Shown: piece after piece, positions 4,482 to 43,923 of the stretch
Layout of the letters: every line of letters starts with the position of its first letter
Numbering within the stretch: the first letter of the stretch is position 1
Source: Bacteroidaceae bacterium
GTDB lineage: Bacteria; Bacteroidota; Bacteroidia; Bacteroidales; Bacteroidaceae
Direction of reading: 5' to 3'
DNA: 49,185 nucleotides
NCBI GenBank assembly: GCA_017534815.1
Contig: JAFXVS010000029.1
Span: 1-49,185, forward strand
Notes under the pieces: model-generated
What the model was told of the DNA's origin: nothing
Databases searched by the model: none
The model's input: only the letters and a program-made list of their open reading frames with translations
Program-made: the position numbers and the translations under genes

Positions 4482-4515
4482 TCGCCGAAATCATCATTAA
4501 AAATAGAATAAAACT

Positions 4516-5052
4516 ATGGAGAATTTCAGAGAATTGGTGCAGATGCGCCGCAGTGTGAGGAAGTTTACGGATGAAGAAATCAAGCCAGAGGACTTGCAGA
4601 CGATTTTAAGGGCTGCGCTGATGGCTCCGACGAGCAAGGGTACGAGGGCTTGGCACTTTGTTGTGGTGGATGACAAGACGATGCTGGAGAAAATATCGCT
4701 GTGCCGTCCGATGGGTAGTCAGTTCATTGCCGGTGCAAAGGTGGCTGTTGTCGTGCTGGGTGATAGAGTCGTGACGGATGCCTGGTGTGAAGATGCTTCG
4801 ATTGCAGCCGTGACGATGCAGTATCAGACGGCAGATTTGGGTTTGGGCTCATGTTGGTGTCACATCCGTAACCGTTTTATGGAAAATGGAGACCCTTCAG
4901 ACAATGCGCTGCGGTTCTTGCTGCATTATCCTGAGAATCTGACAGCGGAGTGTGTCATTGGTATCGGTTATCCAGCCATCGAGCGTAAGCCGCAGGATGA
5001 AGATAAACTGAAATGGGAGAATGTACATATAGGAGGATTCCCTGAGGAGTGA
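4516..5052 (+). CDS. Nitroreductase family flavoprotein
   Basis: A 178-residue FMN-dependent nitroreductase-fold protein. The FMN phosphate-binding motif RRSVRKF lies at about residues 10-16. The conserved GTRAWHFVVV follows near 41, and the family's GLGSCWCHIR lies near 116-125. Members reduce nitroaromatics, quinones or other electrophiles with NAD(P)H; the natural substrate here cannot be read. It has its own promoter and is separated by 44 bases from the DUF2520 gene. Confidence 0.85.
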   Translation: MENFRELVQMRRSVRKFTDEEIKPEDLQTILRAALMAPTSKGTRAWHFVVVDDKTMLEKISLCRPMGSQFIAGAKVAVVVLGDRVVTDAWCEDASIAAVTMQYQTADLGLGSCWCHIRNRFMENGDPSDNALRFLLHYPENLTAECVIGIGYPAIERKPQDEDKLKWENVHIGGFPEE

Positions 5053-5096
5053 AGAGTTTCGGGTTTAGAACTTGGTGTGAATAATCTTTTTCGTTT

Positions 5097-5861: not shown

Positions 5862-5922
5862 GGTTGCGAATATAGAGTTGAGAGTTTAGGGTATAGAGTA
5901 TAGAAATTAGAGTTGAAAAGAT

Positions 5923-6441
5923 ATGATAAATTATGATTTGAAGAAGATACGGGCCGTGTTTTTCGATGTGGACGGGGTCTTGTCATGCGAGACCATTCCG
6001 CAGCATCCGAACGGTGACCCAATGCGCACGGTGAACATCAAGGATGGTTATGCCATGCAGCATGCGGTGAAGTGCGGACTCAAACTTGCCATCATCACGG
6101 GTGGCAGGACGGAGGCGGTGCGCATCCGTTACGAGGGTTTGGGACTGAAGGATGTGGTGCTCGGTGCGGCTGTAAAAATTAAGGCGTACAGGGAACTGAA
6201 ACGGAAGTACCATCTGAAGGACGAACAAATCGTTTATGTGGGCGATGACATCCCCGACTATGAAGTGTTGAAGACCTGTGGGCTGCCATGCTGTCCTGCT
6301 GATGCCGCTCCTGAAATCAAGGACATCTGTACCTATATCTCCCATAAGAATGGTGGGCAGGGATGTGCTCGCGATATCTTGGAACAAATATTAAAAGCAC
6401 AAGACAAATGGATACACGACAGCACAGCGTTCGGTTGGTAG
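5923..6441 (+). CDS. kdsC: KdsC-family HAD phosphatase (3-deoxy-manno-octulosonate-8-phosphatase type)
   Basis: A 172-residue HAD-superfamily subclass without a cap domain. The nucleophile and acid/base aspartates are Asp15 and Asp17 (FFDVDGVL). The second motif is IITGGR (57-62), the lysine motif lies at KIKA (85-88), and the metal motif is GDD (107-109). NIKDGYAM and the C-terminal GGQGCARD align with KdsC, which releases Kdo from Kdo-8-phosphate for lipopolysaccharide. The second residue after the first motif differs from classic KdsC (SCET), so substrate identity is inferred. Its 3' end overlaps maf by 34 bases. Confidence 0.82.
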
Positions 6442-10201: not shown

Positions 10202-10263
10202 CAAATAAGTGAGGGAAATACCAAATAAAAATGTATTTTCTTTTTTTTTTCCCCTCGACGGAC

Positions 10264-10400
10264 TTTTACAGCCTGTAAAAATCAGAGAAGGCCTCCTCGG
10301 CAAACTTTTACAAACTGTAAAAATCAGAAAAGACCCCCTTGGCCGACTTTTACAGCCTGTAAAAGAAAAAAAATAGGCTATTTGTTAAACTTTACACCTG
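10264..10400. repeat. 42-bp-period tandem array of TTTTACA-N3-TGTAAAA palindromes
   Basis: Three copies of TTTTACA-N3-TGTAAAA start at 10264, 10306 and 10348, exactly 42 bases apart. The segments between copies are also related (ATCAGAGAAGG versus ATCAGAAAAGA, then C/T-rich). A degenerate fourth copy (TTTACACCTG) begins about 10391. The array lies in the 324-base non-coding stretch 10167-10490, after the trmD stop and upstream of the minus-strand lipoprotein promoter. Nothing else in that stretch looks coding. A 14-base T run precedes the array. Confidence 0.85.
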
Positions 10401-18942: not shown

Positions 18943-21900
18943 TTACTTTATGACGAATTTGATGTGGCATTCATCGCCATCTTCTGTAGTGGCACTTACA
19001 AGATAGATTCCCTTGGGAAGTGATGCCACGCTGATAGAAACGAACGTGTTTCTTCTGTGTGAGAAACTTGCTGCACTCATCTTCATGCCAGACATATTGT
19101 AGATGTCAGCAGTCTTGATGGGGGAGTCTTCGCTCTTGATGTTGACGGCTCCGTCCACATAGGCAATGGTGATGCCTCCCTCTTTGGTGTAGGACTGGAT
19201 GGCGTCTGGTTCTGGAGTCGGTTTGACAGGCTTCACATAATAAGTATCGTAAGAACCGATCTTGTTGGTCTTTGCGATGGTCGGAATGTTCATCACGTAA
19301 ACGTCGTTGGCACCATCAGGATAACGTCCATAAGTCTGTGTGCCCAGATGCTGTTCGTAAGTCAGCGTGTCCGTATATTCCTCACCCATGACGATGATGG
19401 CGTCTCCACCCTTGGTCTCCAGTTTGAAGCCTGTATGGATGTCAGACCCGATGATATCGAGTTTGTCACACCAAATGATTTTGTAGCCGTGTGCAGGGAT
19501 AATGGTATTGAGATTCACATCGTTCGATGGAACTTTATATTCATGCCATTTCTCATTCTTTGACTTGTCGGTGGAAAGGATGATGTCCATTCCCTTGATA
19601 TCGATGTCCTCATTTGTGGTGTTGTACAGCTCCATCCAGTCGTTCTTTTTGTAGTAGTCGTTGATGTAGATTGAGTTGGCTGCGCTCACCTCATTAATGC
19701 GAACAGGGGTGATGCCTTTTGCCAACATCTCGTCTTCGGAAATCTTTTCAAACACGGCTACGACATTTTGTTCACCACTCTCAGGAAGTGTGTATTCAAC
19801 ATCAGTTGTGAGTAAACTATTTCCATTCTTCCAGCCCACAAATTTGTAGCCCGTAGGTGCAATCGCCTTCAATTTGACAGGGGCGAAGAGATAACCATCA
19901 AATTCTGCGTAGGGAAGGTCAAGGTCATTGTAGGTGATCTTGGCATCTTTCGTATCAGCAGAAATGGTGACCTTCTGCTTGCTAACACTTGAAAGTTTGA
20001 TCTCGGAGCGATTCTTCAGAGTGTTGGTGAGTTTGTCGTTCCAACTTTTAGTGAACTTGTTGATGACATAGTTGGAGGAGATGGATGGGTCGAATCTGTC
20101 TTCCTGATGGGCGTTGACACCTGCTTGTATCTTATTCTTCATCTCATTAGCAATCTCCTTTATATATTTTTGTTGCATCACAGAGCCACCCATAATGCAA
20201 TAGGTGTCAATGAATTGCTTGCGGAATTGGTCGTTCTTCAGCATATTCTTGAACAGCGTGACGAAGGTGTTGGTGTATGAGCGTGTTGTCCCTTCAAGAT
20301 TCTGATCTAAAGCATAATTGTAGCCAACCAATCCGTGTTCCGATTGGAATTCTTCCTTGTTGAAGAAGTTCTTGAATGGGTCGTTGTATTTTGAATCTCT
20401 GTCAGAATCATAAACTTGGCCGGCAAAGTCTTGGTCGAACAGGATAAAGTGGAATTTACCTCCGTTACGGTCACGGTAACCCTTCACATTGTTGTGTGGC
20501 CAGTCTGTGCCTCCCAAATAGAATTCCGCAGCCATCAGGTTGGTGTACTCGTCAATGTCTAACAATTGGCGGATTTCAGCGTATGTTTCTTCATCGTCAG
20601 CGGTCTGACTGAGTTCAACCAGATGAAGCCATGCTTCATCCGTTCCTTCCATTTGTACATAGCCTGAATCTGCACATATCTCGAATTGATCCATCTCGTC
20701 GGTGTCAATGCCATAGTTGGCGTAAGCATGGTGTTTGTTGTTGGGCTCACGCATGCTCAATGTCCCGTGGTATTTACCGTTGACGAGTACATGCACGGGT
20801 TGCCACTCCTGATAGTCGATGTTCAAGCCACTACGTGCAACAATCTGCTGCAGGATGGCATCTCTGATGCGACCTCCTAACTGGTTGTATGTCTGAACGT
20901 CATTACCTCCGTTTCGGATCTGTAATGTCTTGTTCTTGTTGTAGGGCTTGTTCTCGAACAGTTGCGCGGCAAAGAAGTTCTGGAAATCATATTCTTTTCC
21001 AGCTTTGAGCTTGAATGAATGTGGGTTCCACGCGCGGCTCCATCCACCACACATGGTCAAATCGCACTCTTGAGAGACAATACATTCATTGTCAGCTGTG
21101 ATGTATTCAAATGAGACGGGACGATCCCAGTCCATGTTCCAGTTGGCTGGAGCAGCATTGGGGTCACCTCCCTTTTTACCATTTCCACTACCTTGTACGA
21201 AAACTCCATATTCCTGTGAGTTCAGATTCTTGTCGTCTGTGACCACTGAAATGATGGGAAGAGGATAGGAAGACTTACTACCATATATATATGTACGCGT
21301 AACGACAGGAGAAGGTAGATAGCCATCTTTGAAAACACGGAAACGGTAACAAGTGGTCTTATTTTGTGTTTTGAACACGCCTGTTAATGATGTTTGACCA
21401 TTGGTTAGCGTTGGGGCAGTACCATCAGTAGTGTATTTTAAGGTGGATCCTGTTGGAATATTGACGATCACATTTAAAGTTCCAGAATATACCTGCGCAT
21501 CTTTGTTCACGACAGGTGGATCAAGTTGGTATTCTGCGAACTTACCATCTTGATTGGATGCACCTGGTGTCGGATTGCCAGCGTATCCCCATTCTTCTCC
21601 GCCATCAGTGGTTAGAGCATATGAAATGCGTGAGATGGCTTGCCCATATTCAGCCTCTGCTAAGATGTTTGTACCGTCTGAGATGATGATTTCGCCACCA
21701 TCGCAATCTAATTTGTCATCAATCTGTCGATAGGATGCTTTTGTGAAGACATCGAAGTGATCAAAATTCAGGACTGCAAACCCTTTTGCCGGAAGATAGC
21801 CGTAAGAATCAATCAGACGATGTTTCTTTAGATTATTCCGATCATCTGTAACATACAGACCACCTAAGGAGAATCCGACATCTGATTTATTATAGAGTTC

Positions 21901-22659
21901 CACCCAACTGCCGTAGTTGAATGATGGGTCGAGATAGACATCCACATTGGCTGCCATGATTTCATTGATGACGATTGCGTCTTTAATTTCACTCGCATCG
22001 CCCCAATACTCCAATTTCCAATTGTCCAGGCATGTCCAGTCCTCGTTGATCTTTGAAGATTTTTTGATACCAATCGTCAAAGTGCCATCATTTTGAACTG
22101 TACATTCGATGGTGTTTGTGTATTTGCCATCTTTAAAGGCATAATCTGCAGCCTTCATGTCATCTGGGATGTAGTAAGAGGGAGTGCCCCACCAGCCCCA
22201 TCCACCGTTATCATCTTTCACCTCTTTCCATGATCCTACAGTTGGTTTTTGGTCATATTTCTCTGGTGAGGCGGGAACAATGGCTACTGATTTTGTGCGT
22301 ATGCCATTGTTTGTCTTGACATACAGGTTTGCCTTTTGATAATCTTCGTAATCGCCCTTGGACAGTTTGTAGTCATTGCTGGCACTTCCCATGCGATAGA
22401 AAGCGTTGACACTAACACGGTAATTACCAGGCTTCAGTCCAGTGAGCTTTTGGTAGGTGTCATAATTGTTGTTGTTGTAATGTTGGGCGTTTTCCGCCGG
22501 GTTTTGTTTGCCGAATTCGGTACCTTCCCAACCTGTTTTAACATCATTGTTGTCAAATCTTGGATTGGTGACATACTTGTCAGTCACATCAATCCATACT
22601 TGCGCAAAGCCTGCCAGCGAAGCTGCGGCCATCAGCAGTGTAGTAAATAGTTTCTTCAT
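18943..22659 (-). CDS. CotH-domain surface protein with lamin-tail, chitobiase-like and T9SS domains
   Basis: A 1238-residue secreted protein. A signal peptide (1-19, cut before Gln20) is followed by an N-terminal beta-rich domain, then a lamin-tail domain (about 227-370, INEIMAANVDVY). A chitobiase C-terminal-like domain (about 380-455, LKYTTDGTAPTL) precedes a CotH kinase-like domain (about 463-890, with VNGKYHGTLSMREPN and FHFILFDQDFA). An InlB-like strand repeat, a second lamin-tail domain (about 985-1130) and a type A T9SS sorting domain (1165-1238) complete it. CotH proteins are atypical kinases; activity here is unproven. The 5' gene is a longer paralogue. A surface protein or adhesin-type role is inferred. 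Confidence 0.88.
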   Translation of the reverse strand: MKKLFTTLLMAAASLAGFAQVWIDVTDKYVTNPRFDNNDVKTGWEGTEFGKQNPAENAQHYNNNNYDTYQKLTGLKPGNYRVSVNAFYRMGSASNDYKLSKGDYEDYQKANLYVKTNNGIRTKSVAIVPASPEKYDQKPTVGSWKEVKDDNGGWGWWGTPSYYIPDDMKAADYAFKDGKYTNTIECTVQNDGTLTIGIKKSSKINEDWTCLDNWKLEYWGDASEIKDAIVINEIMAANVDVYLDPSFNYGSWVELYNKSDVGFSLGGLYVTDDRNNLKKHRLIDSYGYLPAKGFAVLNFDHFDVFTKASYRQIDDKLDCDGGEIIISDGTNILAEAEYGQAISRISYALTTDGGEEWGYAGNPTPGASNQDGKFAEYQLDPPVVNKDAQVYSGTLNVIVNIPTGSTLKYTTDGTAPTLTNGQTSLTGVFKTQNKTTCYRFRVFKDGYLPSPVVTRTYIYGSKSSYPLPIISVVTDDKNLNSQEYGVFVQGSGNGKKGGDPNAAPANWNMDWDRPVSFEYITADNECIVSQECDLTMCGGWSRAWNPHSFKLKAGKEYDFQNFFAAQLFENKPYNKNKTLQIRNGGNDVQTYNQLGGRIRDAILQQIVARSGLNIDYQEWQPVHVLVNGKYHGTLSMREPNNKHHAYANYGIDTDEMDQFEICADSGYVQMEGTDEAWLHLVELSQTADDEETYAEIRQLLDIDEYTNLMAAEFYLGGTDWPHNNVKGYRDRNGGKFHFILFDQDFAGQVYDSDRDSKYNDPFKNFFNKEEFQSEHGLVGYNYALDQNLEGTTRSYTNTFVTLFKNMLKNDQFRKQFIDTYCIMGGSVMQQKYIKEIANEMKNKIQAGVNAHQEDRFDPSISSNYVINKFTKSWNDKLTNTLKNRSEIKLSSVSKQKVTISADTKDAKITYNDLDLPYAEFDGYLFAPVKLKAIAPTGYKFVGWKNGNSLLTTDVEYTLPESGEQNVVAVFEKISEDEMLAKGITPVRINEVSAANSIYINDYYKKNDWMELYNTTNEDIDIKGMDIILSTDKSKNEKWHEYKVPSNDVNLNTIIPAHGYKIIWCDKLDIIGSDIHTGFKLETKGGDAIIVMGEEYTDTLTYEQHLGTQTYGRYPDGANDVYVMNIPTIAKTNKIGSYDTYYVKPVKPTPEPDAIQSYTKEGGITIAYVDGAVNIKSEDSPIKTADIYNMSGMKMSAASFSHRRNTFVSISVASLPKGIYLVSATTEDGDECHIKFVIK

Positions 22660-22741: not shown

Positions 22742-25700
22742 TCACTTGATGATGAATTTGATGTGGCATTCCTCACCATCTTCGGTGGTGGCACTCACCA
22801 AATAGATTCCCTGAAGCAATGTTGTCACATTTAAAGATACAAACTTGTTCCCTCCATGCGAGAAACTTGTCGCCCCCATCTTGATACCCGACATGTTGTA
22901 GATATCAATGCTCCTGACAGGGGAGTCCTCGCTTTTGATGTTGACCGCTCCGTCCACATAGGCAATGGTGATGCCTCCCTCCTTTGTGTAGGATTGGATG
23001 GCATCTGGTTCAGGAACCGGTTTGATGGGCTTCTCATAATACGTGTCGTATGAACCGATCTGGTTTGTTTTCGCGATAGTCGGAATGTTCATCACATAGA
23101 CGTCGTTGGCACCATCAGGATAACGTCCATAAGTCTGTGTGCCCAGATGTTGCTCATAAGTCAGTGTGTCTGTATATTCTTCTCCCATGACGATGATTAT
23201 TTCGCCTCCCTTGGTCTCCAACTTAAAGCCCGTGTGGATGTCCGCTCCGATGATGTCGAGTTGGTCACACCAAATGACCTTATAACCCCGTGCAGGAATG
23301 ATAGTGTTGAGCATCACGTTGTCTGACGGAACCATATATTCGTGCCATTTCTCCTTCTTCGACTTGTCGGTGGTATGGATGATATTCATTCCCCCAATGT
23401 CGATATCCTCATCCGTTGTGTTGTACAGCTCCATCCAGTCGTTCTTTTTGAAGTGATCGTTGACATAGATGGAGTTAGCTGCGCTCACTTCATTGATGCG
23501 CACAGGGGTAATGCCTTCTGCCAGCAGCTCATCCTCTCGCATCTCTTCAAATTCCGCAAGGAGTTTCTGGGCACCAGATGATGGTAATGTATATTCAGCG
23601 TCGGTCGAAACATAATCTTGTTCCACTTGTGTCACTATCGCCTTGAGCGATGCATCCCAAAGAATGTCACTCGACGTGGTGCTGTTGTTGTGTACTTCAA
23701 TGGCAATTACATTCTTTCCCTTGTTGAAGAGCGAACCCTTCAGTGTCATCTGACCCGTGTCAGGATTGCCATGAGCATATTCGGTTGCCATCGTGTTGTA
23801 TGATGCGTTCCCAGAGGGCATATTGTACCGTCCTGCTTCCACTCCATTGACATAAACAATCATTCCATCATCGATGATGTAGTCCAGGATGAACTCATCC
23901 GTAGTGGATGGGGCTGTGTCGAGGTTAAAGGTTTTACGGAAATAATACGTTGGCAGATACCCAGCCATTTCGGTATTCATACCTGTGTGCCACTGGTTGT
24001 AGTCGTACCCCAAACGTGCTGAACCATTTCCCCATTGAGCGTCGTTATATGAGGGCGCCTTCCAATTCTCACGGTCGAGTGCCCCCTGATCATAATACTT
24101 CCAAGTTTCACCCATGCCAAACACGCTTTTCGTCTGAGTGGAACCCGTATTCACCCATCCTGCAAAGCGGTAACCTGCAGGAGCTTTTGCCTTCAAGGTG
24201 ACATTTCCAAATAGATACCCGTCAAATTCCGCGTATGGAACTTCCATGTCGTTCAACAAAATGGTGGCCTCGGGCACATTTGCTGAGAATTTCACCTGCT
24301 GACGTTCCACACCCTCCAACTGCATGTGTGAGCAATTCTGCAAAGCCTGAGTGGCGTTGTTGTTGCGAGACCCCAATTTGTTCATCACCTGATTGGCCGT
24401 GTTCCACGGATTCACAAAGTCATTCGTGCTCAGATAGTCGGCCACGTCATAGACGATCTCCTCCACTTTGTACTGCTGGAACACTGAACCACCCACAATA
24501 CAGAATGAGTCTATGAATTTTTTGCGGAACGTAGCGTTCTTTAATAAATTCTTGAAGAGGGTGACGAATTCAATCTGTTTACGGTTGCGTTTCCCTTCGA
24601 TGCTTTCACCTTTAGAATAGTCATATCCATGCAAGGTGTCAAACTCATAATTTTCCTTTTCGAAGAACTTGTTGAACACTTCGCCCGAGCTAACATTGAA
24701 CGCACCGTCTAAGTCAAACAGCACGAAATGGAATTTTCCGTCATTTACCCCACGGAAACCCTTCACGTTGTTCTGCGGCCAGTCCCAGTTGCCAATATGA
24801 AGCTCCACTGCCAGATAGTTGATGAACTCATCCACATCAAGCATCTGCATGATCTCCTCATACGTGTCCTCATTCTCGGCATCTTTACTGAGCTCCAGCA
24901 GACGGTTGAACGCATCCTTCGATCCCTCCATCTGCACATATCCCGAATCAGGTGAAATCTCAAACTGATCCATTTCATCCGTGTCCAACCCATAATTGGC
25001 ATACGCATGATGTTTGTTGTTCGGTTCACGCATGTTCAATACGGCGTAATGGCTACCATTGATGAATACGTGGACTGGTTGCCATGCCTGATGGTCTACA
25101 TACAGTCCGCTGCGAGCAACCACCTGTTGAATGGACGCGTCCAGCACACGGCAACTCCCGTCATTGCCGCCATTACGAATTTGCAATGTTTTATTTTTAA
25201 TATAGGGCTTCTCCTCAAAGAACTGCGCCTTGAAGTAATTGTTGAGGTCGTACGTCTTCGTTGCCTTCAACTTAAATGACTTCAGACTGGATGCCCTAGT
25301 CCAACCTCCACATACCGACAAGTCACATTCCTGCGAGAGCACATACTCATTCCTGTCTGTGATATATTCGAACGATACAGGACGATCCCAGTCCATGTTC
25401 CAATTGCAGTTGCTTGTTTGTCCATTACCTGGACGACCATTGGAACCCTTTTGGAACACACCATAGGCAGTTGAGTAGAGATTGTTGCGGTCAGTCACGA
25501 TAGAAATGATGGGGAAGGGGTATTGACGGTCTTTGTGTATATAAGAGCGAGTCACAACAGGGGAGGGAAGATAACCGTCTTGAAACAGGCGAAACCTGTA
25601 ACAGACCGTTCCATTCACGGTGAAGAGTCCTGTTTCAGATGTTTCTCCATTGGTGAGTGTGGGGCACGTACCATTTGTGGTGTATTTTAACATTGCCCCC

Positions 25701-27139
25701 TGAGGAATGTTCACACATACTTCTATCGTCCCATTGAAAAGTCCTCCGTCTTTATCTACTATGGGTGCGTCAAGTTGTTCTTCTGCAAAATATCCATTGA
25801 CATCGTTGGACGTACCTGGTGTGGGGTTGCCCGATCGTTTCCATTCTTTTTTACCATCTGGGGTTCGGGTGAGTGCATAAGATGTGCGTGCAATGGCATA
25901 TGGATATGTTTCTTGTGCAATAATGTTGGTACCATCAGAAATGATGATGGTGCCTCCGTCACAGTCCAGTTTGTCATCAATTTGTCGATAAGAAGCGGCA
26001 GTCCATACTTCATGATGGTCGAAGTTGAGTAGTGCATAGCCATTAGCAGGAAGAGCGTCATATGAATCAGGCAAACGGTTCTTCTTTAGATTGTTTGGGT
26101 CATCAGTGATATATAGGCCACCCAATGCAACGATTTTATCAGTGGGATTGTACAATTCTACCCAGCTACCATAATTATAGGAGGGATCCATATACACATC
26201 CACATTGGCGGCCATGATTTCATTGATTATCAGATTTTCAGACGTGGCAGGTTCTCTTTTGACGGTCACCCTGCATCGTGCTGTAATTCCACTGCCATCT
26301 TTGGCTGTGGCAATGATGGAGCATGAACCGACTCCAACTGCAGTAATCTGCCCTTTGCTGTCCACGGTGGCCACACTCTCTTTAGTTGATGACCATGTGA
26401 CATTTTTATATGTAGCATCAGATGGAGATATGGTCGCCGTTAAGTCATGTTTTTCTGCCTGCATCAATTCCAAACTGCGTTCGGAAAGAGTAATGGATGT
26501 AACATTAATAAGCGTACCCCAATATTCCAATTTCCAGTTATCGATGCATGTCCAATCATATTGAACCCACTCATCTTTTCGGATTCCAATAGTAAGACCT
26601 CCATCATCCTCCACCTCACAATCTACATAATTGTAATAATAATCTGCTTCAAACCAATTGTGAGCAGCTTCCATATTGTCGGGGATATAAAAGCTCCCCA
26701 CATGTTGGGTCGCTCCGCCAAGAGAACTTCCGAGTGCTGCGGATGAGGCCAATACAATAGGGGAATCGTAATATCCTTTGTTTGACAAGGCATATAGGCG
26801 GGCATACTGATACTCTTTGAAGTTGCCCGAGGTGTAGGTGTTATAATCATTGCTTGCATTTCCATAACGATATAGAGCATTAAGGCTAACGCGATAGAAA
26901 CCTGCCTTTAATCCGGAAATGTTCTGGTACGAATTGTAGGTCTTGTTGTAGTGCTCGGCGTTCTCTACAGGGTTATATGCTCCCAATTCAGTCCCTTCCC
27001 ATCCCGTAGTGACATCATTGTTGTCATATCTTGGGTTGATGATGTACCCATCAGTAACATCAACCCATTCCTGCGCATAGCATGATAGCGATGCGCATAA
27101 CAGAAAGAGGCCATAAAGTGTTTTCTTCATTCTTGTCAT
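22742..27139 (-). CDS. Larger CotH-domain T9SS protein, paralogue of the next gene
   Basis: A 1465-residue secreted protein, starting MTRMKKTLYG with a signal peptide cut near CYAQ; ATG 27130 is an alternative start. It has the same order as its shorter neighbour but carries two additions. A bacterial Ig-like (BIG2) domain occupies about 211-294 (VTWSSTKESVATVDSKG). A jelly-roll-like segment sits at about 1000-1170 (DDGMIVYVNGVEAGRYNMPSG, GKNVIAIEVHN). The CotH core is at about 545-945 (FINGSHYAVLNMREPN, FHFVLFDLDGA). A second lamin-tail domain and a type A T9SS tail end it. Sequence identity with the neighbour is high in the last 260 residues. Confidence 0.87.
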   Translation of the reverse strand: MTRMKKTLYGLFLLCASLSCYAQEWVDVTDGYIINPRYDNNDVTTGWEGTELGAYNPVENAEHYNKTYNSYQNISGLKAGFYRVSLNALYRYGNASNDYNTYTSGNFKEYQYARLYALSNKGYYDSPIVLASSAALGSSLGGATQHVGSFYIPDNMEAAHNWFEADYYYNYVDCEVEDDGGLTIGIRKDEWVQYDWTCIDNWKLEYWGTLINVTSITLSERSLELMQAEKHDLTATISPSDATYKNVTWSSTKESVATVDSKGQITAVGVGSCSIIATAKDGSGITARCRVTVKREPATSENLIINEIMAANVDVYMDPSYNYGSWVELYNPTDKIVALGGLYITDDPNNLKKNRLPDSYDALPANGYALLNFDHHEVWTAASYRQIDDKLDCDGGTIIISDGTNIIAQETYPYAIARTSYALTRTPDGKKEWKRSGNPTPGTSNDVNGYFAEEQLDAPIVDKDGGLFNGTIEVCVNIPQGAMLKYTTNGTCPTLTNGETSETGLFTVNGTVCYRFRLFQDGYLPSPVVTRSYIHKDRQYPFPIISIVTDRNNLYSTAYGVFQKGSNGRPGNGQTSNCNWNMDWDRPVSFEYITDRNEYVLSQECDLSVCGGWTRASSLKSFKLKATKTYDLNNYFKAQFFEEKPYIKNKTLQIRNGGNDGSCRVLDASIQQVVARSGLYVDHQAWQPVHVFINGSHYAVLNMREPNNKHHAYANYGLDTDEMDQFEISPDSGYVQMEGSKDAFNRLLELSKDAENEDTYEEIMQMLDVDEFINYLAVELHIGNWDWPQNNVKGFRGVNDGKFHFVLFDLDGAFNVSSGEVFNKFFEKENYEFDTLHGYDYSKGESIEGKRNRKQIEFVTLFKNLLKNATFRKKFIDSFCIVGGSVFQQYKVEEIVYDVADYLSTNDFVNPWNTANQVMNKLGSRNNNATQALQNCSHMQLEGVERQQVKFSANVPEATILLNDMEVPYAEFDGYLFGNVTLKAKAPAGYRFAGWVNTGSTQTKSVFGMGETWKYYDQGALDRENWKAPSYNDAQWGNGSARLGYDYNQWHTGMNTEMAGYLPTYYFRKTFNLDTAPSTTDEFILDYIIDDGMIVYVNGVEAGRYNMPSGNASYNTMATEYAHGNPDTGQMTLKGSLFNKGKNVIAIEVHNNSTTSSDILWDASLKAIVTQVEQDYVSTDAEYTLPSSGAQKLLAEFEEMREDELLAEGITPVRINEVSAANSIYVNDHFKKNDWMELYNTTDEDIDIGGMNIIHTTDKSKKEKWHEYMVPSDNVMLNTIIPARGYKVIWCDQLDIIGADIHTGFKLETKGGEIIIVMGEEYTDTLTYEQHLGTQTYGRYPDGANDVYVMNIPTIAKTNQIGSYDTYYEKPIKPVPEPDAIQSYTKEGGITIAYVDGAVNIKSEDSPVRSIDIYNMSGIKMGATSFSHGGNKFVSLNVTTLLQGIYLVSATTEDGEECHIKFIIK

Positions 27140-30871: not shown

Positions 30872-31788
30872 GTACCTATTCTGACTACAAAGCAGCCAAT
30901 CATTATACGACCTACACCGTCAAGGAACCCACGGAACTGATGACATTCCTCATGACGGCTATCGCTGGTATCTCACGTACAAAAGCCAAGGAATATCTGA
31001 GTCAACGTATGGTGTATGTCAATAAGGAAATCACGACACAGTACAATTACCTCCTTCAGCCAGGACAGATTGTGCAAGTGGCCAAGAACCGTCATAAACA
31101 TGCGTTTTCCAGCCCTTGGGTGCGCATCATTTACGAAGATGCTTTTCTGTTGGTGGTGGAGAAGAAGGAGGGTGTCCTCACCAATGCCATGCCTGGCGAT
31201 CGCCACGAGAATGTGAAGTCAATACTGGACGAATATGTCAAGCGACAAAATCGCACGTTTTCTGTCCATACCGTTCATCGTCTTGACCGAGGGACTTCCG
31301 GATTGCTGCTCTTTGCCAAGCGCCGTGACATCCAGAAAACTTTTACCGATTATTGGCAAGAAATCGTGACGGATCGCCGATATATTGCAGTAGTGCAGGG
31401 CGAGATGGAGAAGGATCGAGGTACAGTTACTTCGTGGATTAGCGATAACCGTATGTTCATCTCTTACTCAACACCTTATGACAATGGCGGCAAACAGGCT
31501 GTCACGCATTATCGTACTTTGCAACGCAAGAATGGTTTCTCGTTGGTGGAATTTAAACTCGAGACAGGACGTAAGAACCAGATCCGTGTTCACATGCACG
31601 ATTTGAATCATCCCATTGTCGGAGATCACAAATATGGAAGCACCGTTGAGGCTTATGGCGATCGAAGTAACCCTGCCGGGCGTTTCTGTCTGCATGCTTA
31701 TCGCCTTGCCTTCCGTCACCCCATTACTGGTGAAGAACTTAAATTCGAGACACCTTATCCGGATGCTTTCATGCGCTTGCTAAAGTGA
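30868..31788 (+). CDS. RluA family pseudouridine synthase
   Basis: A 306-residue synthase. An S4-type RNA-binding domain occupies about residues 20-75. The catalytic motif is HRLDRGTSG with Asp140. GRKNQIRVHMHDLNHPIVGD and the C-terminal FCLHAYRLAF block complete the RluA pattern. The exact target uridine, in rRNA or tRNA, cannot be told from sequence. It overlaps rlmD by 4 bases. Confidence 0.92.
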   Translation: MSTYSDYKAANHYTTYTVKEPTELMTFLMTAIAGISRTKAKEYLSQRMVYVNKEITTQYNYLLQPGQIVQVAKNRHKHAFSSPWVRIIYEDAFLLVVEKKEGVLTNAMPGDRHENVKSILDEYVKRQNRTFSVHTVHRLDRGTSGLLLFAKRRDIQKTFTDYWQEIVTDRRYIAVVQGEMEKDRGTVTSWISDNRMFISYSTPYDNGGKQAVTHYRTLQRKNGFSLVEFKLETGRKNQIRVHMHDLNHPIVGDHKYGSTVEAYGDRSNPAGRFCLHAYRLAFRHPITGEELKFETPYPDAFMRLLK

Positions 31789-31877
31789 AAAGACGTGGAT
31801 GAAGGGGCCTTCAGAAATCGCTTTTTGTGGTCGATAAACTAAAAAGGACGTTCTTTCATCATAAATTATGTGAAAGT

Positions 31878-31909
31878 TTTGAATTATTCAGAAAAAATTC
31901 CTATATTTG
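31878..31909 (+). promoter_or_regulatory. Promoter of the primary sigma factor gene
   Basis: TTTG at 31878-31881 and TATATTTG at 31902-31909, spacing 20, match the Bacteroidota -33/-7 pattern. The leader would be about 17 bases to the ATG at 31932. Confidence 0.65.
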
Positions 31910-31931
31910 CACGCTTTTTTACGCGTAAAGT

Positions 31932-32801
31932 ATGAGACAATTAAAAATTACCAAGTCAATCACGAACCGTGAGAGTGCTTCGTTAGATAAGTACTTGCAG
32001 GAAATTGGTCGTGAGGAGTTAATCACTGTAGAGGAAGAGGTTGAGCTGGCAGCGAAGATTCGCAAAGGCGGTATCGAAGGCCGAAGAGCCTTGGAGAAAC
32101 TGACAAGAGCGAACCTTCGTTTCGTCGTTTCTGTGGCAAAGCAGTATCAAAATCAGGGATTGAGTTTGCCCGACCTGATAAATGAGGGCAATTTGGGTTT
32201 GATCAAAGCTGCTGAGAAATTTGACGAAACTCGTGGATTCAAGTTCATCAGTTATGCTGTGTGGTGGATTCGTCAGTCTATTCTGCAGGCATTGGCTGAA
32301 CAAAGCCGTATTGTGCGTTTGCCTTTGAACCAGGTGGGTTCGCTCAACAAGATCGGCAAGGCTTTCTCTAAGTTTGAGCAGGAGAATGAGCGCCGTCCTT
32401 CACCAGAAGAATTGGCGGCACAGCTCGATTTGCCTGTCGACAAGGTGGCTGACACGATGAAGGTGAGCGGTCGCCATATCAGTGTGGATGCACCTTTCGT
32501 GGAAGGCGAGGATAACAGTCTGTTGGATATCTTGTCCAATCCGGATTCTCCTTCGGCTGACCGCACCTTGGTGACGGAATCTTTGCAGAAAGAGATTGAA
32601 CGTGCTCTTGACACCTTGACTACTCGTGAAAAGGAAATCATCAAGATGTTCTTTGGTTTGGGTGAACCTGAGAAGACTTTAGAAGAGATTGGCGATCGTT
32701 TTAATTTAACTCGTGAACGTGTACGCCAAATTAAGGAGAAGGCTATTCGCCGTCTGCGCTCCCACTCGAAGAGTCGTTTGTTAAAGACTTATTTAGGATG
32801 A
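31932..32801 (+). CDS. rpoD: RNA polymerase primary sigma factor (RpoD/SigA)
   Basis: A 289-residue sigma70-family factor of the short Bacteroidota primary type. Region 1.2 starts at about residue 12 ([12 protein letters not shown]). Region 2 holds the -10 recognition helix ([17 protein letters not shown]), with regions 3 and 4 following. Region 4.2 reads [20 protein letters not shown]. It recognises the TTTG/TAnnTTTG promoters seen in this window. Its stop overlaps the next ATG (ATGATG at 32798). Confidence 0.96.
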
Positions 32802-33220
32802 TGAGGAGGTTTTTGTTCGTGGTGATGCTGCTTTTGCCATTGTTAGTGATGGCGAAACAAAAGGCGTCACAATATGGTAGAGGAGCTGGGAAGGTGTATC
32901 TGTTTGGCGTGAGTCAGCAGTTGACAGACTCAGTGGTTTACATCACATTTATCAATGAGGTAGACAGCCTTGATTTGATGAAGAAGACGAAGTTCCTGCC
33001 TTTCCGTTCTGAGTTCAGTTTGCAATTGAAAGAGCACATGGAGGGTACTTTGAAGAAAGATCATCAGACTACATGTGTGTATTTTTCGACCAGTCGGAGA
33101 AAACTTTCGAAGAAGTATTACAAGATTAAGAAGCGCTTTCTGGATAATCCATATACAAAGGTGATGCCTTTGGAAGGCTTCCAGTTTAAACATCCGTTGG
33201 ATTCTTTTGTCAAAGAGTGA
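32798..33220 (+). CDS. Small exported protein of unknown function
   Basis: A 140-residue product with an N-terminal signal peptide ([20 protein letters not shown]) and no lipobox. The mature part is basic, with an odd Lys/Arg/Ser-rich centre ([18 protein letters not shown]). I recognise no domain. It overlaps rpoD by 4 bases and the next gene starts 2 bases after its stop, so it is probably co-transcribed with the sigma factor. A shadow of translation coupling is likely. Confidence 0.7.
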
Positions 33221-33221
33221 A

Positions 33222-34472
33222 ATGAATAGGTTCTTCCAGAGGGTATATGGCACAGTTGCAGTAATGGTATATGCTATTGCTGCAACTTGTTCGTTTTCTG
33301 CCTGCTCTGACAACGATGATGCTCCGCCACCACCTCCTCCTTATGCCGAAAGCCGTACTGTGATGGTTTACATGGTGGCGGAGAACTCTCTTGCCTCTAA
33401 TGCGGCTTCGGATATAAGAGAGATGTTGGAAGGCATGAACAACGATTCATTGTATGCGGGTGACAAATTGGTGATTTATTTGGATGATATGGATATGCCT
33501 CGTATTTATGTAATTGATAAAACAACCAAGAAAAGTGCGTTGTCCGATTTGGAGCCAGATATGATGTATGACGAGGTGAACTCATCTTCCTCCACTCAAT
33601 TGGCTACATTTATTGACTACGCTAAAACTCATTGTCATGCTGACAGTTATGGATTGGTGCTGTGGTCGCATGCGTCGGGTTGGTTGCCCTCCAGTTATGG
33701 TGGTGATCAAAACCGTGGGGAGTATTCCAGAAGGAAGACTTTTGGGGTGGATAATGGTCGGAATACTTCTTCTAACCAAGGACATCAGATGAACATTGAC
33801 GATATGGCTGATGCATTGGCTGATGTATTGAATGGAGAAACGTTAGATTTCCTATTCTTTGATGCTTGTTCTATGCAGAATATTGAAGTGGCATACGAAT
33901 TACGTAAAATCACTAAATATTTGATAGCATCTCCTGCTGAGATTCCTGCGTTAGGTGCTAACTACAAGACGATGACGAAGGCGATGTTTAGGAAGGATGA
34001 TTATGTGGAGCGGATGCTTTCTGCTTATGATATGGAATATCGTGATTCGTATGGTCTTGTCATTTCTGCAGTGAACACAAGTGAACTGAAAGACTTCACG
34101 GCTTATATGAAGGAAGTGGTTTGGGCTCACAAGTCAGAGATGCTGGCGTTGAACACATCATCCATGCTGAATTATCTTCACTATGGCGAGTGGCGTAATG
34201 ATCTTCCTGACTTTCTCGACATGCAGAGCATCATGCTGAATGTGCTTAGCGAGGATGAGTTTGCGGAATGGAAAACAGAGGCAGACAAAGTTTTCAGCTG
34301 TAAGCACGCTGGACGTTGGTATAGCATTTACAAGAGGAGGAACGAAATTGATGATGCCCAATGTTGTGGGGTTTCTATGTTCATCCCGTTTAATAAGTAT
34401 GCATCCAAATCTTTCAATGCCGACTATTACAAAACGTCTTGGGCAAAGGCCGTATGGCTCATGTCAGAATAG
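33222..34472 (+). CDS. Clostripain-family (C11) cysteine peptidase lipoprotein
   Basis: A 416-residue protein started at ATG 33222; the frame runs to a TTG at 33207, which I reject as start. A lipobox ends at Cys28 (SFSACSD), followed by a proline run. The C11 peptidase core shows the catalytic pair His150 (LWSHASGW) and Cys216 (FFDACSMQN), the typical spacing of clostripains, which cleave after arginine or lysine. A surface-anchored or periplasmic enzyme is likely. It is 14 bases upstream of the HprK-like gene and shares its stop codon with a direct repeat. Substrate unknown. Confidence 0.88.
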   Translation: MNRFFQRVYGTVAVMVYAIAATCSFSACSDNDDAPPPPPPYAESRTVMVYMVAENSLASNAASDIREMLEGMNNDSLYAGDKLVIYLDDMDMPRIYVIDKTTKKSALSDLEPDMMYDEVNSSSSTQLATFIDYAKTHCHADSYGLVLWSHASGWLPSSYGGDQNRGEYSRRKTFGVDNGRNTSSNQGHQMNIDDMADALADVLNGETLDFLFFDACSMQNIEVAYELRKITKYLIASPAEIPALGANYKTMTKAMFRKDDYVERMLSAYDMEYRDSYGLVISAVNTSELKDFTAYMKEVVWAHKSEMLALNTSSMLNYLHYGEWRNDLPDFLDMQSIMLNVLSEDEFAEWKTEADKVFSCKHAGRWYSIYKRRNEIDDAQCCGVSMFIPFNKYASKSFNADYYKTSWAKAVWLMSE

Positions 34473-34487
34473 TTAAGGTGAAGGTTA
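34467..34487 (+). repeat. Direct repeat, left copy
   Basis: GAATAGTTAAGGTGAAGGTT plus A matches the copy at 36127-36147 at 20 of 21 bases. It contains the stop codon of the C11 peptidase gene and ends at the HprK-like start. Confidence 0.85.
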
Positions 34488-35392
34488 TGAGAACATATTA
34501 TCGAGTAGGGCGTCATCATTATTGTGTGAACTTCTGTGATGACAAGAACACGGCAGCTTTATTGCCATCGAGCGAACCATTTCGCGTGGCCGATGCTCCA
34601 ACGGAGGAGCCATTACTCTTTGAACTGACGGTAGATGATACTTGGCGTCCTGTACGGAAGGGTAAGGAGATTGGACAGTTCGACTGTGGTGGCAATAATC
34701 ATGGTGTCTATCGACTGGAGGATGGGTCATATCAGATTTTGTTGAGTGATGTGAATGGAAACCATTGTTGTCTGATGCAGGCGTCGGCAGATTTCTCCTC
34801 TGCCACGGTATGTCTGAATGGTGATGATTCGATGCGTCAGTTTGGTCTGAATAATGCCTTGATGATGATGTATGCTTTTGCGGGTGCTGACAAGATGACG
34901 GTGCTGATGCATGCGTCCGTGGTGAGAAAGGACGGCATGGGGTATCTCTGCCTCGGTGTGAGTGGCACGGGCAAAAGCACTCATACACACAATTGGCTCC
35001 AGTATGTGCCCGGTACGGATCTGATGAATGATGATAATCCTGTGGTGAGGGTGTGTGAAGATGGCGTGGCACGTGTGTTTGGCTCTCCTTGGAGTGGTAA
35101 GACACCTTGTTATCGCGATGTGGAAGCGCCCATAGGAGGATTCCTGCAACTGAAACAGGCGCCTTACAACAAGATTGAGCGGATGAGGGTTGTAGATGGT
35201 TATGCCTCCTTGCTACCTTCGTGCTCGGTGATGAAGTGGGATAGACGTGATCATGTGGGAACCAGCGACACCGTGGCGAAACTGCTGGAACTGGTACCCG
35301 TGTATTTCTTGGAGAACTTGCCGAATGAGGAGGCTGTGAAGATGAGTTATGAAGCCATGACGGGAAAGAGATATGGACAGATTGACGGTTGA
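34487..35392 (+). CDS. HprK-like kinase (P-loop, serine-kinase type)
   Basis: A 301-residue protein started at ATG 34487; the open frame reaches a TTG at 34439 that I do not use. The P-loop GVSGTGKST lies at 157-165, followed by the HprK-type DD pair (LMNDDNPVV, 182-183) and SPWSGKTPCYRD. The family includes bacterial HPr kinases and the HprK-like enzymes of lasso-peptide clusters that phosphorylate the precursor. The C-terminal HprK signature loop is not evident. It overlaps the S26 peptidase gene by 20 bases. Confidence 0.78.
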   Translation: MRTYYRVGRHHYCVNFCDDKNTAALLPSSEPFRVADAPTEEPLLFELTVDDTWRPVRKGKEIGQFDCGGNNHGVYRLEDGSYQILLSDVNGNHCCLMQASADFSSATVCLNGDDSMRQFGLNNALMMMYAFAGADKMTVLMHASVVRKDGMGYLCLGVSGTGKSTHTHNWLQYVPGTDLMNDDNPVVRVCEDGVARVFGSPWSGKTPCYRDVEAPIGGFLQLKQAPYNKIERMRVVDGYASLLPSCSVMKWDRRDHVGTSDTVAKLLELVPVYFLENLPNEEAVKMSYEAMTGKRYGQIDG

Positions 35393-35846
35393 AAACGCTG
35401 TATTCTTGCCTCAGGTGGTACAACTGATTCGGGAGGGACATACGGCTACGATGATGGCGCGGGGCAACAGCATGAGACCCTTCATCGAAGATGGAAGGGA
35501 CAAGTTGGTGTTCGGACAGGTGGATACCCTTGCTGTAGGGGATGTGATACTGGCGGAGGTGACGGAAGGGCATTTTGTGTGCCACCGTATTGAAACCATC
35601 CAATCGGGTTTGGTGACGATGAGAGGCGATGGAAATGTCGCAGGGACAGAAGTGTTTCCCATAGCAAATGTGCGGGCGAAGTTGCTACAGGTGGTGCGAA
35701 AGGGGAAGACCTACACATTGGCCACCTCTCGGACGTGGAAATACTATTCAGCTGTGTGGCCAAAATTGTTACCCATGAGGAGATATCTCTTGGCTCTTTA
35801 TCGTCTCCTGTGGCTCCACCAATGGCCAGAACGATGGAAGAAGTGA
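35373..35846 (+). CDS. S24/S26 family peptidase, SipW-like signal peptidase
   Basis: A 157-residue protein. The nucleophile region is GNSMRPFI with Ser33. A His takes the place of the usual general-base Lys (CHRIETI, His71), and Asp86 lies in MRGDGN. This Ser-His-Asp arrangement is that of SipW and archaeal type I signal peptidases. There is no N-terminal membrane anchor; a hydrophobic, Trp-rich C-terminus may associate with the membrane. It overlaps the HprK-like gene by 20 bases. Confidence 0.82.
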   Translation: MDRLTVENAVFLPQVVQLIREGHTATMMARGNSMRPFIEDGRDKLVFGQVDTLAVGDVILAEVTEGHFVCHRIETIQSGLVTMRGDGNVAGTEVFPIANVRAKLLQVVRKGKTYTLATSRTWKYYSAVWPKLLPMRRYLLALYRLLWLHQWPERWKK

Positions 35847-35865
35847 TATACATTACTAATATAAT

Positions 35866-36132
35866 ATGAAGATTAAAGAAGGTTTTGAATTGCGCAACGT
35901 GTGTGGTGAGAACATCATTATTGCACATGGTGTGGAGAATATTGACTTTACGAAAGTCATCACATTGAATGAATCTGCAGCTTTTATCTGGAGGCATGTG
36001 GAAGGCAAGGATTTTACGGAGGAAGACATGGTTCAACTGCTCCTTGATGAATATGAGGTGGATGCCCCCCAAGCTCAAGCTGATGTCCAACAACTGCTGA
36101 ATTCCTGGCTTCAAGCAGGTCTTGTGGAATAG
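35866..36132 (+). CDS. PqqD family protein (RRE-type peptide-binding)
   Basis: An 88-residue winged-helix protein. The PqqD pattern is visible: an N-terminal beta region, then LNESAAFIWRHVEGKDFTE (residues 33-51) and the QQLLNSWLQAGLVE tail. PqqD proteins and RREs bind leader peptides of ribosomally made, modified peptides and deliver them to the maturase. No radical SAM enzyme, cyclase or obvious precursor gene lies near it. It follows the S26 gene by 19 bases. Confidence 0.85.
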   Translation: MKIKEGFELRNVCGENIIIAHGVENIDFTKVITLNESAAFIWRHVEGKDFTEEDMVQLLLDEYEVDAPQAQADVQQLLNSWLQAGLVE

Positions 36133-36147
36133 TTAAGGTGAACGTTA
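36127..36147 (+). repeat. Direct repeat, right copy
   Basis: GAATAGTTAAGGTGAACGTT plus A, 1660 bases downstream of the left copy, differs at one base. It includes the PqqD stop codon at the same place that the left copy includes the C11 stop codon. The bases after it continue as a GTTAAGGTT-type simple repeat up to about 36170. Confidence 0.85.
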
Positions 36148-36175
36148 AAGTTAAGGTTAGCGTTAAGGTTAAAAG

Positions 36176-36841
36176 ATGGCAAAGGTACAAATTGAATCCA
36201 CATGGCTCGAGAAACTGCAACCAGAGTTTGACAAGCCTTATTTCGAACAATTGATCCAGTTCGTGAAGGCTGAGTATGCTCAGGGTACATGCTATCCTCC
36301 AGGCGCACTCATCTTTAACGCTTTCAATCTCTGCCCATTGCCTAAGGTGAAGGTGGTGCTTATAGGACAAGACCCCTATCACGAACCCCAACAGGCTCAT
36401 GGTTTGTGCTTTTCCGTCAATGATGGCATACCCTTTCCCCCATCACTCCGCAATATCTTTCAGGAGATTCAGACAGACCTGGGTAAACCGATTCCACAGT
36501 CTGGCAATTTGACTCGATGGGCTGAACAGGGTGTTCTGCTGCTCAATGCCACCTTGACTGTTCGTGCGCATGCTGCTGCCAGCCATCAGAAGCGTGGATG
36601 GGAGGAATTCACGGATGCGGTCATTCGTCTGGTCAGTGCTGAACGGGAACATGTAGTTTTCATCCTTTGGGGCAGTTATGCACAGAGTAAGGCGTCGCTG
36701 ATAGATGCCTCTAAACATTGCATTCTGCGTTCCGCACATCCATCACCACTATCTGCTTATCGTGGATTTTTCGGTAATCACCATTTCAGCATTTGCAATC
36801 AATATTTACAACAACATGAAATAAAACCCATCAATTGGTAA
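36176..36841 (+). CDS. ung: Uracil-DNA glycosylase
   Basis: A 221-residue family 1 UNG that removes uracil from DNA. The active site is GQDPYH with Asp66, and His188 lies in HPSPLSAYRGFFG. The product is intact and of standard length. It follows PqqD by 43 bases, with the repeat-rich spacer between. Confidence 0.96.
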   Translation: MAKVQIESTWLEKLQPEFDKPYFEQLIQFVKAEYAQGTCYPPGALIFNAFNLCPLPKVKVVLIGQDPYHEPQQAHGLCFSVNDGIPFPPSLRNIFQEIQTDLGKPIPQSGNLTRWAEQGVLLLNATLTVRAHAAASHQKRGWEEFTDAVIRLVSAEREHVVFILWGSYAQSKASLIDASKHCILRSAHPSPLSAYRGFFGNHHFSICNQYLQQHEIKPINW

Positions 36842-36845
36842 GAAC

Positions 36846-38072
36846 GTGAGAAGGATTATATTCATATTGATGCTCTGTGTCCCGTTGATGTCATCCATTG
36901 TGCATGCACAGACCTCCGACTCTCTGATGGCAGCTCATCTGCGGTCGAGGGGTGTGAACATCTACGATGGTAATTCCGTGCATCTGTTGAAGACGGGGCA
37001 TGATAAATTTGAGGATCTATTTGAAGCGGTGCGTAATGCCCAATCGTTCATCCATCTTGAATACTTCAATTTCCGCAACGATTCCATCGCAGGACTTCTC
37101 TTCCATCTATTGGCGCAGAAAGCAGCTGAAGGGGTGGAGGTGCGTGCGCTCTACGATGCTTTTGGCAATTCTTCCAACAATCAACCAATCAAAGCCCACA
37201 TGCACGATTCTATCAATGCCTTGGGCATCAAGTTGGTGAAGTTCGATCCCATCCGTTTCCCATGGGTGAATCACATCATTCCACGTGATCACAGAAAGAT
37301 TGTGGTCATCGATGGAAAGATTGCCTATACGGGTGGTATGAACGTGGCCGATTATTATATCGAAGGCATTCCAGAGATTGGTGATTGGCACGATATGCAC
37401 ATGCACATCGAGGGACCCGTGGTGAACGAATTGCACGACATCTTCTGTCGTATGTGGTACAAAGCCACCAAGGAACTCATTTCAGGAGCCAAGTATTTCC
37501 CTGCTGAAATTCCGAGCAATGACAACCAACGTTTGGCTATCATTGACCGTCATACAGGGAAGACGCCAGATGCTATCCGTGACCTCTTTGCAGAGATGCT
37601 CAACACGGCTCAACATAAGGTGCTTCTCATCAATCCGTATTTTGTGCCCACCCATCGTGTAAGGAAAGCGCTGAAGCGTGCCATCGACCGTGGAGTGGAT
37701 GTACAGATACTGCTTTCTGCCAAGAGCGATATTCCTCTGACACCAGAAGCATCCCATTATGTGGGAAATAATCTGGCAAAGCGAGGTGCCAAGGTTTATC
37801 TCTTCCACGGCGGTTTCCATCATACGAAAATCATGATGATAGATGACCTCTATTGCACGGTAGGTTCCAGCAATATGGATGCTCGTTCTTTACGTTGCGA
37901 CTACGAGGTCAACACCGTCATCTTCAGCAAGAAGACCACCCAAGAACTGACTGACCTCTTCAACGAGCAACTCAAGTCAGCCACTCCTATGGAGAAGGGC
38001 TATTGGAGCACACGTACCACAGGCAAGAAGTTCCAAGGTTGGTTTGGTAACCTCCTCACCCCCTTCCTCTAA
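36846..38072 (+). CDS. Exported phospholipase D / cardiolipin-synthase-type protein
   Basis: A 408-residue protein from GTG 36846 (MRRIIFILMLCVP). It has a cleavable signal peptide (cut after VHA, residue 21) instead of the two N-terminal membrane helices of standard cardiolipin synthases. Both HKD motifs are complete: His149-Lys151-Asp156 (HRKIVVID) and His326-Lys328-Asp333 (HTKIMMID). It is therefore probably active, but at the periplasmic face of the membrane. Substrate and product are inferred only from the family. It starts 4 bases after ung. Confidence 0.85.
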   Translation: MRRIIFILMLCVPLMSSIVHAQTSDSLMAAHLRSRGVNIYDGNSVHLLKTGHDKFEDLFEAVRNAQSFIHLEYFNFRNDSIAGLLFHLLAQKAAEGVEVRALYDAFGNSSNNQPIKAHMHDSINALGIKLVKFDPIRFPWVNHIIPRDHRKIVVIDGKIAYTGGMNVADYYIEGIPEIGDWHDMHMHIEGPVVNELHDIFCRMWYKATKELISGAKYFPAEIPSNDNQRLAIIDRHTGKTPDAIRDLFAEMLNTAQHKVLLINPYFVPTHRVRKALKRAIDRGVDVQILLSAKSDIPLTPEASHYVGNNLAKRGAKVYLFHGGFHHTKIMMIDDLYCTVGSSNMDARSLRCDYEVNTVIFSKKTTQELTDLFNEQLKSATPMEKGYWSTRTTGKKFQGWFGNLLTPFL

Positions 38073-43854: not shown

Positions 43855-43922
43855 GCCGGATGGAGAAAATCGCCCAGCGCGTGGGCTGGCCGGATGGAAA
43901 ACTACGCCCAGCGCGTGGGCTG
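43855..43922. repeat. 34-bp tandem duplication with GCCCA-GCGCG-TGGGC hairpins
   Basis: Two adjacent 34-base units (43855-43888 and 43889-43922) agree at about 30 of 34 positions. Each carries the palindrome GCCCAGCGCGTGGGC. The array fills the spacer between the glyA stop and the rlmN start. It looks like a REP-type extragenic palindrome rather than a terminator, since no T run follows on either strand. Confidence 0.85.
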
Positions 43923-43923
43923 G

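Follow-up and report, generated by a model that had tools for sequence, protein, structure and literature searches.

Three adjoining genes at positions 34487-36132 of contig JAFXVS010000029.1 from a Bacteroidaceae bacterium probably form the Bacteroidota counterpart of the machinery for linear polyphosphorylated peptides (LPPs), with precursors dispersed over the genome. The contig, analysed over its full 49,185 nucleotides and referred to as the window, is numbered C55 in a genome assembly of 2.3 Mb and 94 contigs that is 75% complete. The three genes, which contain the genome's single kinase of this type and its single PqqD gene, are the following:

34487-35392, + strand: HprK-like P-loop kinase, LppK-like (K); weak family matches, invariant residues
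35373-35846, + strand: S26/SipW-like serine peptidase, LppS-like (S); matches to PF00717 and TIGR02228 below cut-off
35866-36132, + strand: PqqD-type recognition element (RRE) of ribosomally synthesized and post-translationally modified peptides (RiPPs), LppB-like (B); PF05402 over cut-off

LPPs were described in 2026 from the lppAKBSDN genes of Paenibacillus alginolyticus, and their role is not known (PMC13381572). Their core consists of a SpI-like/SipW-like peptidase, a discrete RRE, an HprK-like kinase, an NTP-transferase and an MsbA-like pump. The YxxP motif of the leader is gripped by D70 and N33 of LppB, the kinase phosphorylates Ser3 of the core, and the peptidase needs the RRE. In LppA the Tyr is found at -16 and the phosphorylated Ser at +3, i.e. 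at Y+18, with cleavage three residues before the Ser. The system described here shares with LPPs the kinase, the discrete RRE and probably the SipW-like peptidase, in many relatives also the NTP-transferase and the pump, precursors with a conserved YxxP N-terminus, a variable C-terminus and a Ser near Y+18, as well as the company of capsule loci.

The kinase, the peptidase and the recognition element

The best NCBIfam matches of the kinase are to ScmC/ScmD and HPr-rel-A systems, namely TIGR04249 (E = 4e-5, 23.0 of 125 bits) and TIGR04352 (E = 4e-4), but both are far below the curated cut-offs. The models for HPr kinase/phosphorylase, PF07475 (14.7 of 33.3 bits, E = 0.022) and TIGR00679 (13.5 of 240 bits), do not reach their cut-offs either. 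Residues H142, S159-T165 (Walker A), N181-D183 and S203-K205, the latter two stretches including DD182-183 and SGK203-205, are invariant in all 25 sequences aligned from the 39 on hand; their roles we take to be those of the corresponding residues of HprK. The S26-like protein matches PF00717 (E = 3e-4) and TIGR02228 (E = 6e-6), likewise below curated cut-offs, and S33, H71 and D86 are invariant in 25 of 25 aligned sequences (36 on hand). The PqqD protein exceeds the cut-off of PF05402 (69.9 bits, E = 2e-19); TIGR04248 (ScmD) is among its further matches (21.8 of 100 bits, below cut-off). Its Asn35 and Asp73 are identical in 38 of 38 rows, including that of L071 (loci are given as L numbers, genomes as G numbers), which contains a stop codon, and align with the Asn and Asp of the lasso RRE TfuB1 (E = 0.026, a weak match). 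Judged by this alignment and by spacing (38 versus 37 residues), they would correspond to N33 and D70 of LppB, and the protein appears to keep the Asn and Asp expected to grip YxxP. The stop codon of L071 lies in frame within the PqqD reading at 4975-5235, and the surrounding gene order is kept.

The three genes form a module that travels together in close relatives and less strictly in distant loci. From 38 named kinase loci, the closest of which are Bacteroidales assemblies and several from samples of rumen or other animal gut, S26 was extracted in 35 cases and PqqD in 37; the end of locus L056 falls inside S26, and L074 and L079 gave no S26. Among 20 distant loci (L080-L099), S26 is found in 15 and PqqD in 18. 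Eleven of the 20 also harbor an NTP_transf_5 gene, adjoining the module in ten and further off in L097, and 12 encode an ABC75-type exporter (ABC, ATP-binding cassette). The NTP-transferase and the transporter are thus genes of the system in many relatives. In the window's genome, an NTP_transf_5 gene is located on another contig, at the contig edge; its product is 37% identical over 326 residues to its relative of L075. Within the window's GTDB family, the kinase occurs in 315 of 399 genomes (159 of the 207 near-complete ones) and in 25 of 30 genera. A single-sequence search across the phylum identified it in 10 of 247 genomes, the window's own included.

The initial annotation had combined these genes with the preceding C11 peptidase gene (33222-34472) into one peptide-maturation unit. 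The four genes, their identities and their spacings (a 14-base gap between C11 and kinase, a 20-base overlap of kinase and S26 and a 19-base gap between S26 and PqqD) are as it described them, with C11 and PqqD over their Pfam cut-offs and the kinase and S26 matches below theirs. The joint travel of kinase, S26 and PqqD and the retention of the kinase's catalytic residues in homologues are borne out. It had further reported a transporter as missing, which is true of the window's locus but not of those distant loci that have the exporter.

Three observations on module genes in other genomes are added here. In L062 (9424-11228), S26 and PqqD are 1.8 kb apart, a distance that does not exceed about 310 bases in any other rpoD-linked named locus, and the interval contains called open reading frames (ORFs) of up to 142 aa only. 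Locus L079, from an uncultured Clostridia, has a 47-aa ORF with EYKEP (1510-1653), followed at 1729-5969 by a shorter kinase relative, PqqD and an ABC exporter; the window's S26 as query found no match in L079, which is possibly a Bacillota relative of the system. The kinase-negative family genomes G238, G230, G299, G318, G254, G281, G303 and G252 carry one PqqD-family gene each, and except in G238 the match begins only at profile position 13-15.

Candidate precursors and their partner genes

The candidate precursors are ORFs of 35-93 aa with a YxxP motif, encoded in trans. The first of them came from reading the small ORFs near distant kinases, up to about 8 kb away, among which nine peptides in eight loci contain [YF]xx[PL]. 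A profile built from the nine recovers seven of them in leave-one-out searches of 9874 small ORFs at E = 0.0062 or better, the other two at 0.58 and 20, and no shuffled ORF scores better than E = 2.8. At E = 0.05 the profile finds a match in 28 of 31 kinase-positive versus 3 of 32 kinase-negative genomes (this and all further co-occurrence statistics take no account of kinship). When the six training genomes and, as a precaution, G272 are left out, 21 of 24 kinase-positive genomes match (p = 2e-9). Two of the three kinase-negative matches look false on reading and are nevertheless kept in the count: the 172-aa match of G230, which we take to be ParB-like, and an odd 95-aa frame in G323.

The set was enlarged by reading 70 loci, with peptides picked by the profile together with the [YF]xx[PL] pattern; 52 of the 56 peptides listed were aligned. 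Searched at E = 0.01 against the 399 family genomes, the enlarged profile gives 279 genomes with kinase and peptide, 36 with the kinase only, 20 with the peptide only and 64 with neither, i.e. the peptide is observed in 279 of 315 kinase-positive and in 20 of 84 kinase-negative genomes. The corresponding numbers for near-complete genomes are 143 of 159 and 4 of 48 (p = 9e-27). At the level of genera, the 22 with a peptide all fall within the 25 that have the kinase, and none of the five kinase-free genera has one (p = 4e-4). Two of the kinase-negative genomes with a peptide, G620 and G288, have a full-length PqqD match; G311, G323, G356, G554, G383 and G431 have no PqqD match. Searching the window's own genome gave seven peptide matches at E = 1 or better, and three of these also pass E = 0.01. 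The earlier statement that a precursor is missing thus holds for the window but not for the genome. The proposed peptide-maturation role is now backed by these candidate precursors, a family that tends to occur together with the kinase and bears the YxxP motif bound by such RREs. Four candidate peptides scanned gave no hit over a Pfam cut-off and no NCBIfam match.

Tyr and Pro of YxxP are invariant in 52 of 52 aligned peptides, an invariance that results in part from selection by the [YF]xx[PL] pattern and the profile. The conserved Ser played no part in the selection and makes up just 13% of residues in its region; it is found at Y+19 in 49 of 67 peptides, at Y+18 to Y+20 in 65 and at Y+21 in the remaining two. 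The stretch preceding it is hydrophobic and then consists of small residues. The remainder of the peptides is variable and rich in Ser, Gly, Asp and Glu, with a Trp within the last eight residues in 31 of 67.

We consider it unlikely that the module instead modifies exopolysaccharide or its export, with the YxxP peptides being an independent family that happens to share the same lineages. Such a function would account for the Wza-type export protein in 6 of the 20 distant loci (one of which is the source of the query), for the UpxY antiterminator before the kinase of L083 and for the location of many Bacillota LPP clusters near capsule loci (PMC13381572), and the co-occurrence statistics, ignoring phylogeny as they do, would leave room for it. 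However, PqqD-type RREs are known to bind leader peptides, and the peptides carry YxxP at nearly the spacing to Ser of LPPs. In addition, peptide genes are located among the module genes in G393, L083 and L087, and by genus the peptides are nested within the kinase (22 of 25 genera with it versus none of five without).

Partner genes were analysed for 54 of the 56 collected peptides, leaving out L174 and L175. Of 19 peptide genes from the window's genus, 18 lie no more than 130 bases behind a large open frame. Judged by eye, a shared tail of the kind YxLxGxxV ... KGIYIxNGKKVxxK ends 17 of the 18 large proteins; a strict tail pattern matches 11 of the 18, compared with no match among 227 long ORFs taken from the window and L042-L072, which is a narrow background. 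The tail resembles type IX sorting tails, but eight copies scanned gave no match in Pfam or NCBIfam; a type IX secretion tail was therefore not adopted for the partner proteins, and we leave the tail unnamed. Large secreted proteins of this genus with the tail occur in L156 (1314-4484), L157, L161, L164, L165 and L173, among others. Five of the seven peptide matches in the window's genome lie directly behind a gene for a tail protein. In other genera the arrangement is reversed: the peptide gene comes first in 31 of 35 cases, with a large gene following at a distance of at most 140 bases. The large protein begins with a lipobox-like signal in 28 of the 31, so that 28 of the 35 peptides precede a lipoprotein gene. 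A stretch of about 51 kb in genome G393 contains nine peptide-lipoprotein gene pairs as well as K, S, B and NTP_transf_5.

The peptide genes and their partners are separated by short gaps or overlap slightly, which would also fit small YxxP genes that are not substrates but serve the translational coupling or regulation of the adjoining exported-protein genes. This reading is highly improbable: the side on which the small gene lies differs by lineage, being behind the partner in the window's genus and ahead of it in most other genera, the amino-acid motif is common across genera, and coupling does not explain co-occurrence with the kinase.

The rpoD, u140 and C11 genes beside the module

The genes and repeats surrounding the module are as follows:

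31932-32801: rpoD-type sigma factor gene, before u140
32798-33220, + strand: u140, secreted 140-aa protein of unknown function, judged outside the module
33222-34472, + strand: C11 (clostripain-family) lipoprotein peptidase, PF03415, a neighbour judged outside the module
34467-34487, + strand: left copy of a 21-base direct repeat, spanning the C11 stop codon
36127-36147, + strand: right copy of the repeat, spanning the PqqD stop codon and overlapping the start of an 18-base tandem array

The first 4 bases of u140 are shared with rpoD, and a single base separates its end from C11. C11 scores 148.7 bits against PF03415 (cut-off 25.8, E = 4e-43) and matches the structures of clostripain-family C11 peptidases PDB 6mzo, 6n9j, 5dyn and 3uws, a likeness that concerns a neighbour of the module. 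Genes for a uracil-DNA glycosylase and a cardiolipin-synthase-like protein lie downstream of PqqD. An Rfam scan of 31700-37000 gave no match.

The module stands behind rpoD and u140 in 32 of the 38 named kinase loci, with C11 in between in 30 of the 32. This arrangement would favor a single pathway of surface peptide or protein maturation comprising all four genes, in which C11 cuts the exported product. The proposal is very unlikely in view of 20 stretches fetched around u140, 14 of which have rpoD-u140-C11 without an adjoining module: six derive from kinase-negative genomes (L177-L181, L183) and eight from genomes with the kinase elsewhere (L186-L188, L190-L192, L194, L195). Conversely, K-S-B follows rpoD-u140 without C11 in L098, L193, L065 and L078. 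The other u140 stretches besides L193 comprise L176 with only rpoD and u140, and L182, L184, L185 and L189 with u140 alone at the sensitivity used. The u140 gene is present in all 27 family genomes tested, 12 of which are without the kinase, and is missing from all eight genomes tested from other families, among them the kinase-positive G002. C11 was therefore rejected as a component, and u140, because it occurs with and without the kinase, was rejected both as substrate and as component.

From the 14 module-free loci and the presence of u140 in kinase-negative genomes it follows that C11 is an older neighbour of rpoD, which K-S-B joined as a cassette. The claim of one four-gene unit thus fails for C11, which also has to be removed from the proposed maturation system; K, S and B stay together in close relatives, with C11 not tied to them. 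The run of four genes itself stands, but u140 had been left out of it.

The cassette is flanked by the two copies of the 21-base repeat (20 of 21 bases identical; 0.01 matches expected in shuffles). Among 203 loci, its 11-base core is matched only in the window's own two loci and in L135 and L191. The repeat as a footprint of the first insertion of the cassette was rejected because relatives sharing the cassette lack the exact core; the comparison was confined to exact copies of the core, and diverged copies were not sought. The 18-base tandem array extends over 36131-36172, and two further tandem repeats of the window are located at 10251-10364 (unit of 42 bases) and 43855-43923 (unit of 34 bases). 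Also in the window, two adjacent genes on the minus strand (18943-22659 and 22742-27139) encode giant proteins with CotH kinase and lamin-tail domains and a match below cut-off to the type IX sorting domain PF18962. The CotH proteins are another possible extracellular phosphorylation function.

Comparison with known systems and a proposed pathway

Several features set the Bacteroidota system apart from LPPs. It belongs to another phylum and the window holds K-S-B only. Its precursors are encoded in trans, several per genome and most of those examined beside a gene for an exported protein, and a precursor gene close to the module, absent from the window, is found in some distant relatives. The Ser is mostly at Y+19, and the kinase is present in most genomes of the family, whereas the LPP authors describe a patchy spread in Bacilli; "Bacteroid" is absent from the text of that paper (PMC13381572). 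Paeninodin-like lasso peptides share the HprK-like kinase, a PqqD-type B1 protein, an NTP-transferase, an ABC pump and a YxxP/WxxP leader, but have a cyclase and a B2 peptidase in place of the S26-type peptidase. No macrolactam cyclase or B2 peptidase was noted among the scanned neighbours in the window or by eye in the ORF lists, without a whole-genome search, and a lasso peptide was rejected, as neither was noticed in the loci read. Our literature search, which did not extend to preprints and most subscription papers, returned no description of the system in Bacteroidota. The available parts of a study of RiPP mining in Bacteroidales (PMC10352776) do not mention S26, and their kinase passages concern histidine kinase.

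A number of points weigh against assigning the cassette to LPP-type machinery, in addition to the selection for YxxP mentioned above. The LPP authors call LPPs restricted to Bacillota and the peptidase cluster predominantly so (PMC13381572), and the likeness to LppA and LppB is one of published residues and spacing rather than of sequence alignment. The third catalytic residue of S26 is uncertain: D86 follows the His by 15 residues and a nearly invariant Glu by 22, compared with D93 of LppS at 25 residues after its His (PMC13381572). Five of the 20 distant loci are without an S26 match and two without a PqqD match, and in the window's genome, which is only 75% complete, no ABC exporter could be linked to the module. 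The peptide of L087, one of the first nine, has FEPL instead of YxxP, and the peptide profile finds no precursor in the 49-kb window. The contrast between genomes is weaker at E = 1 (29 of 31 kinase-positive versus 9 of 32 kinase-negative). Likewise, 36 of 315 kinase-positive genomes have no peptide and 20 of 84 kinase-negative genomes have one; among the latter, G311, G323 and G356, each with a completeness of 93% or more, also lack a PqqD match. Finally, the statistics ignore phylogeny, and the enlarged profile was trained partly on the genomes sampled.

With the LPP-type assignment retained as the probable one, we infer a pathway of binding, phosphorylation, cleavage and export. PqqD would grip the YxxP of the precursor via Asn35 and Asp73, and the HprK-like kinase would then phosphorylate the conserved Ser about 19 residues after the Tyr. 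Subsequently, the SipW-like peptidase would remove the leader, cutting just before that Ser. Where present, the NTP_transf_5 enzyme may attach a further group, such as a sugar, to the phosphate. Export of the product may fall to an MsbA-like ABC pump in those genomes that have one. In the window's lineage, a minimal K-S-B cassette beside rpoD-u140-C11 would serve several scattered precursors, most of them encoded directly behind a gene for a large secreted protein.

Tentatively, and with less conviction than for the machinery itself, we suggest a cell-wide peptide tagging in Bacteroides- and Prevotella-type bacteria. One machine would serve many dispersed precursors, each dedicated to the large exported protein encoded next to it, and the phosphorylated, possibly sugar- or polymer-bearing peptide would assist its partner on the cell surface, where it could be an anchor, a link to exopolysaccharide or a factor in maturation, to name three possibilities. 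If true, this would place a RiPP pathway in envelope physiology rather than secondary metabolism.

We note that genes packed like a four-gene "operon" can have two separate histories, as this locus illustrates. What is new compared with the known systems is an LPP-type gene set in Bacteroidota whose kinase occurs in most genomes of the window's family, together with its candidate substrates, encoded by small genes that belong to no recognised family and in many cases are linked to a gene for a large exported protein. The finding supplies a large natural substrate set for the kinase and the peptidase, and offers a starting point for testing what LPP-type peptides do in bacteria of the gut and rumen.

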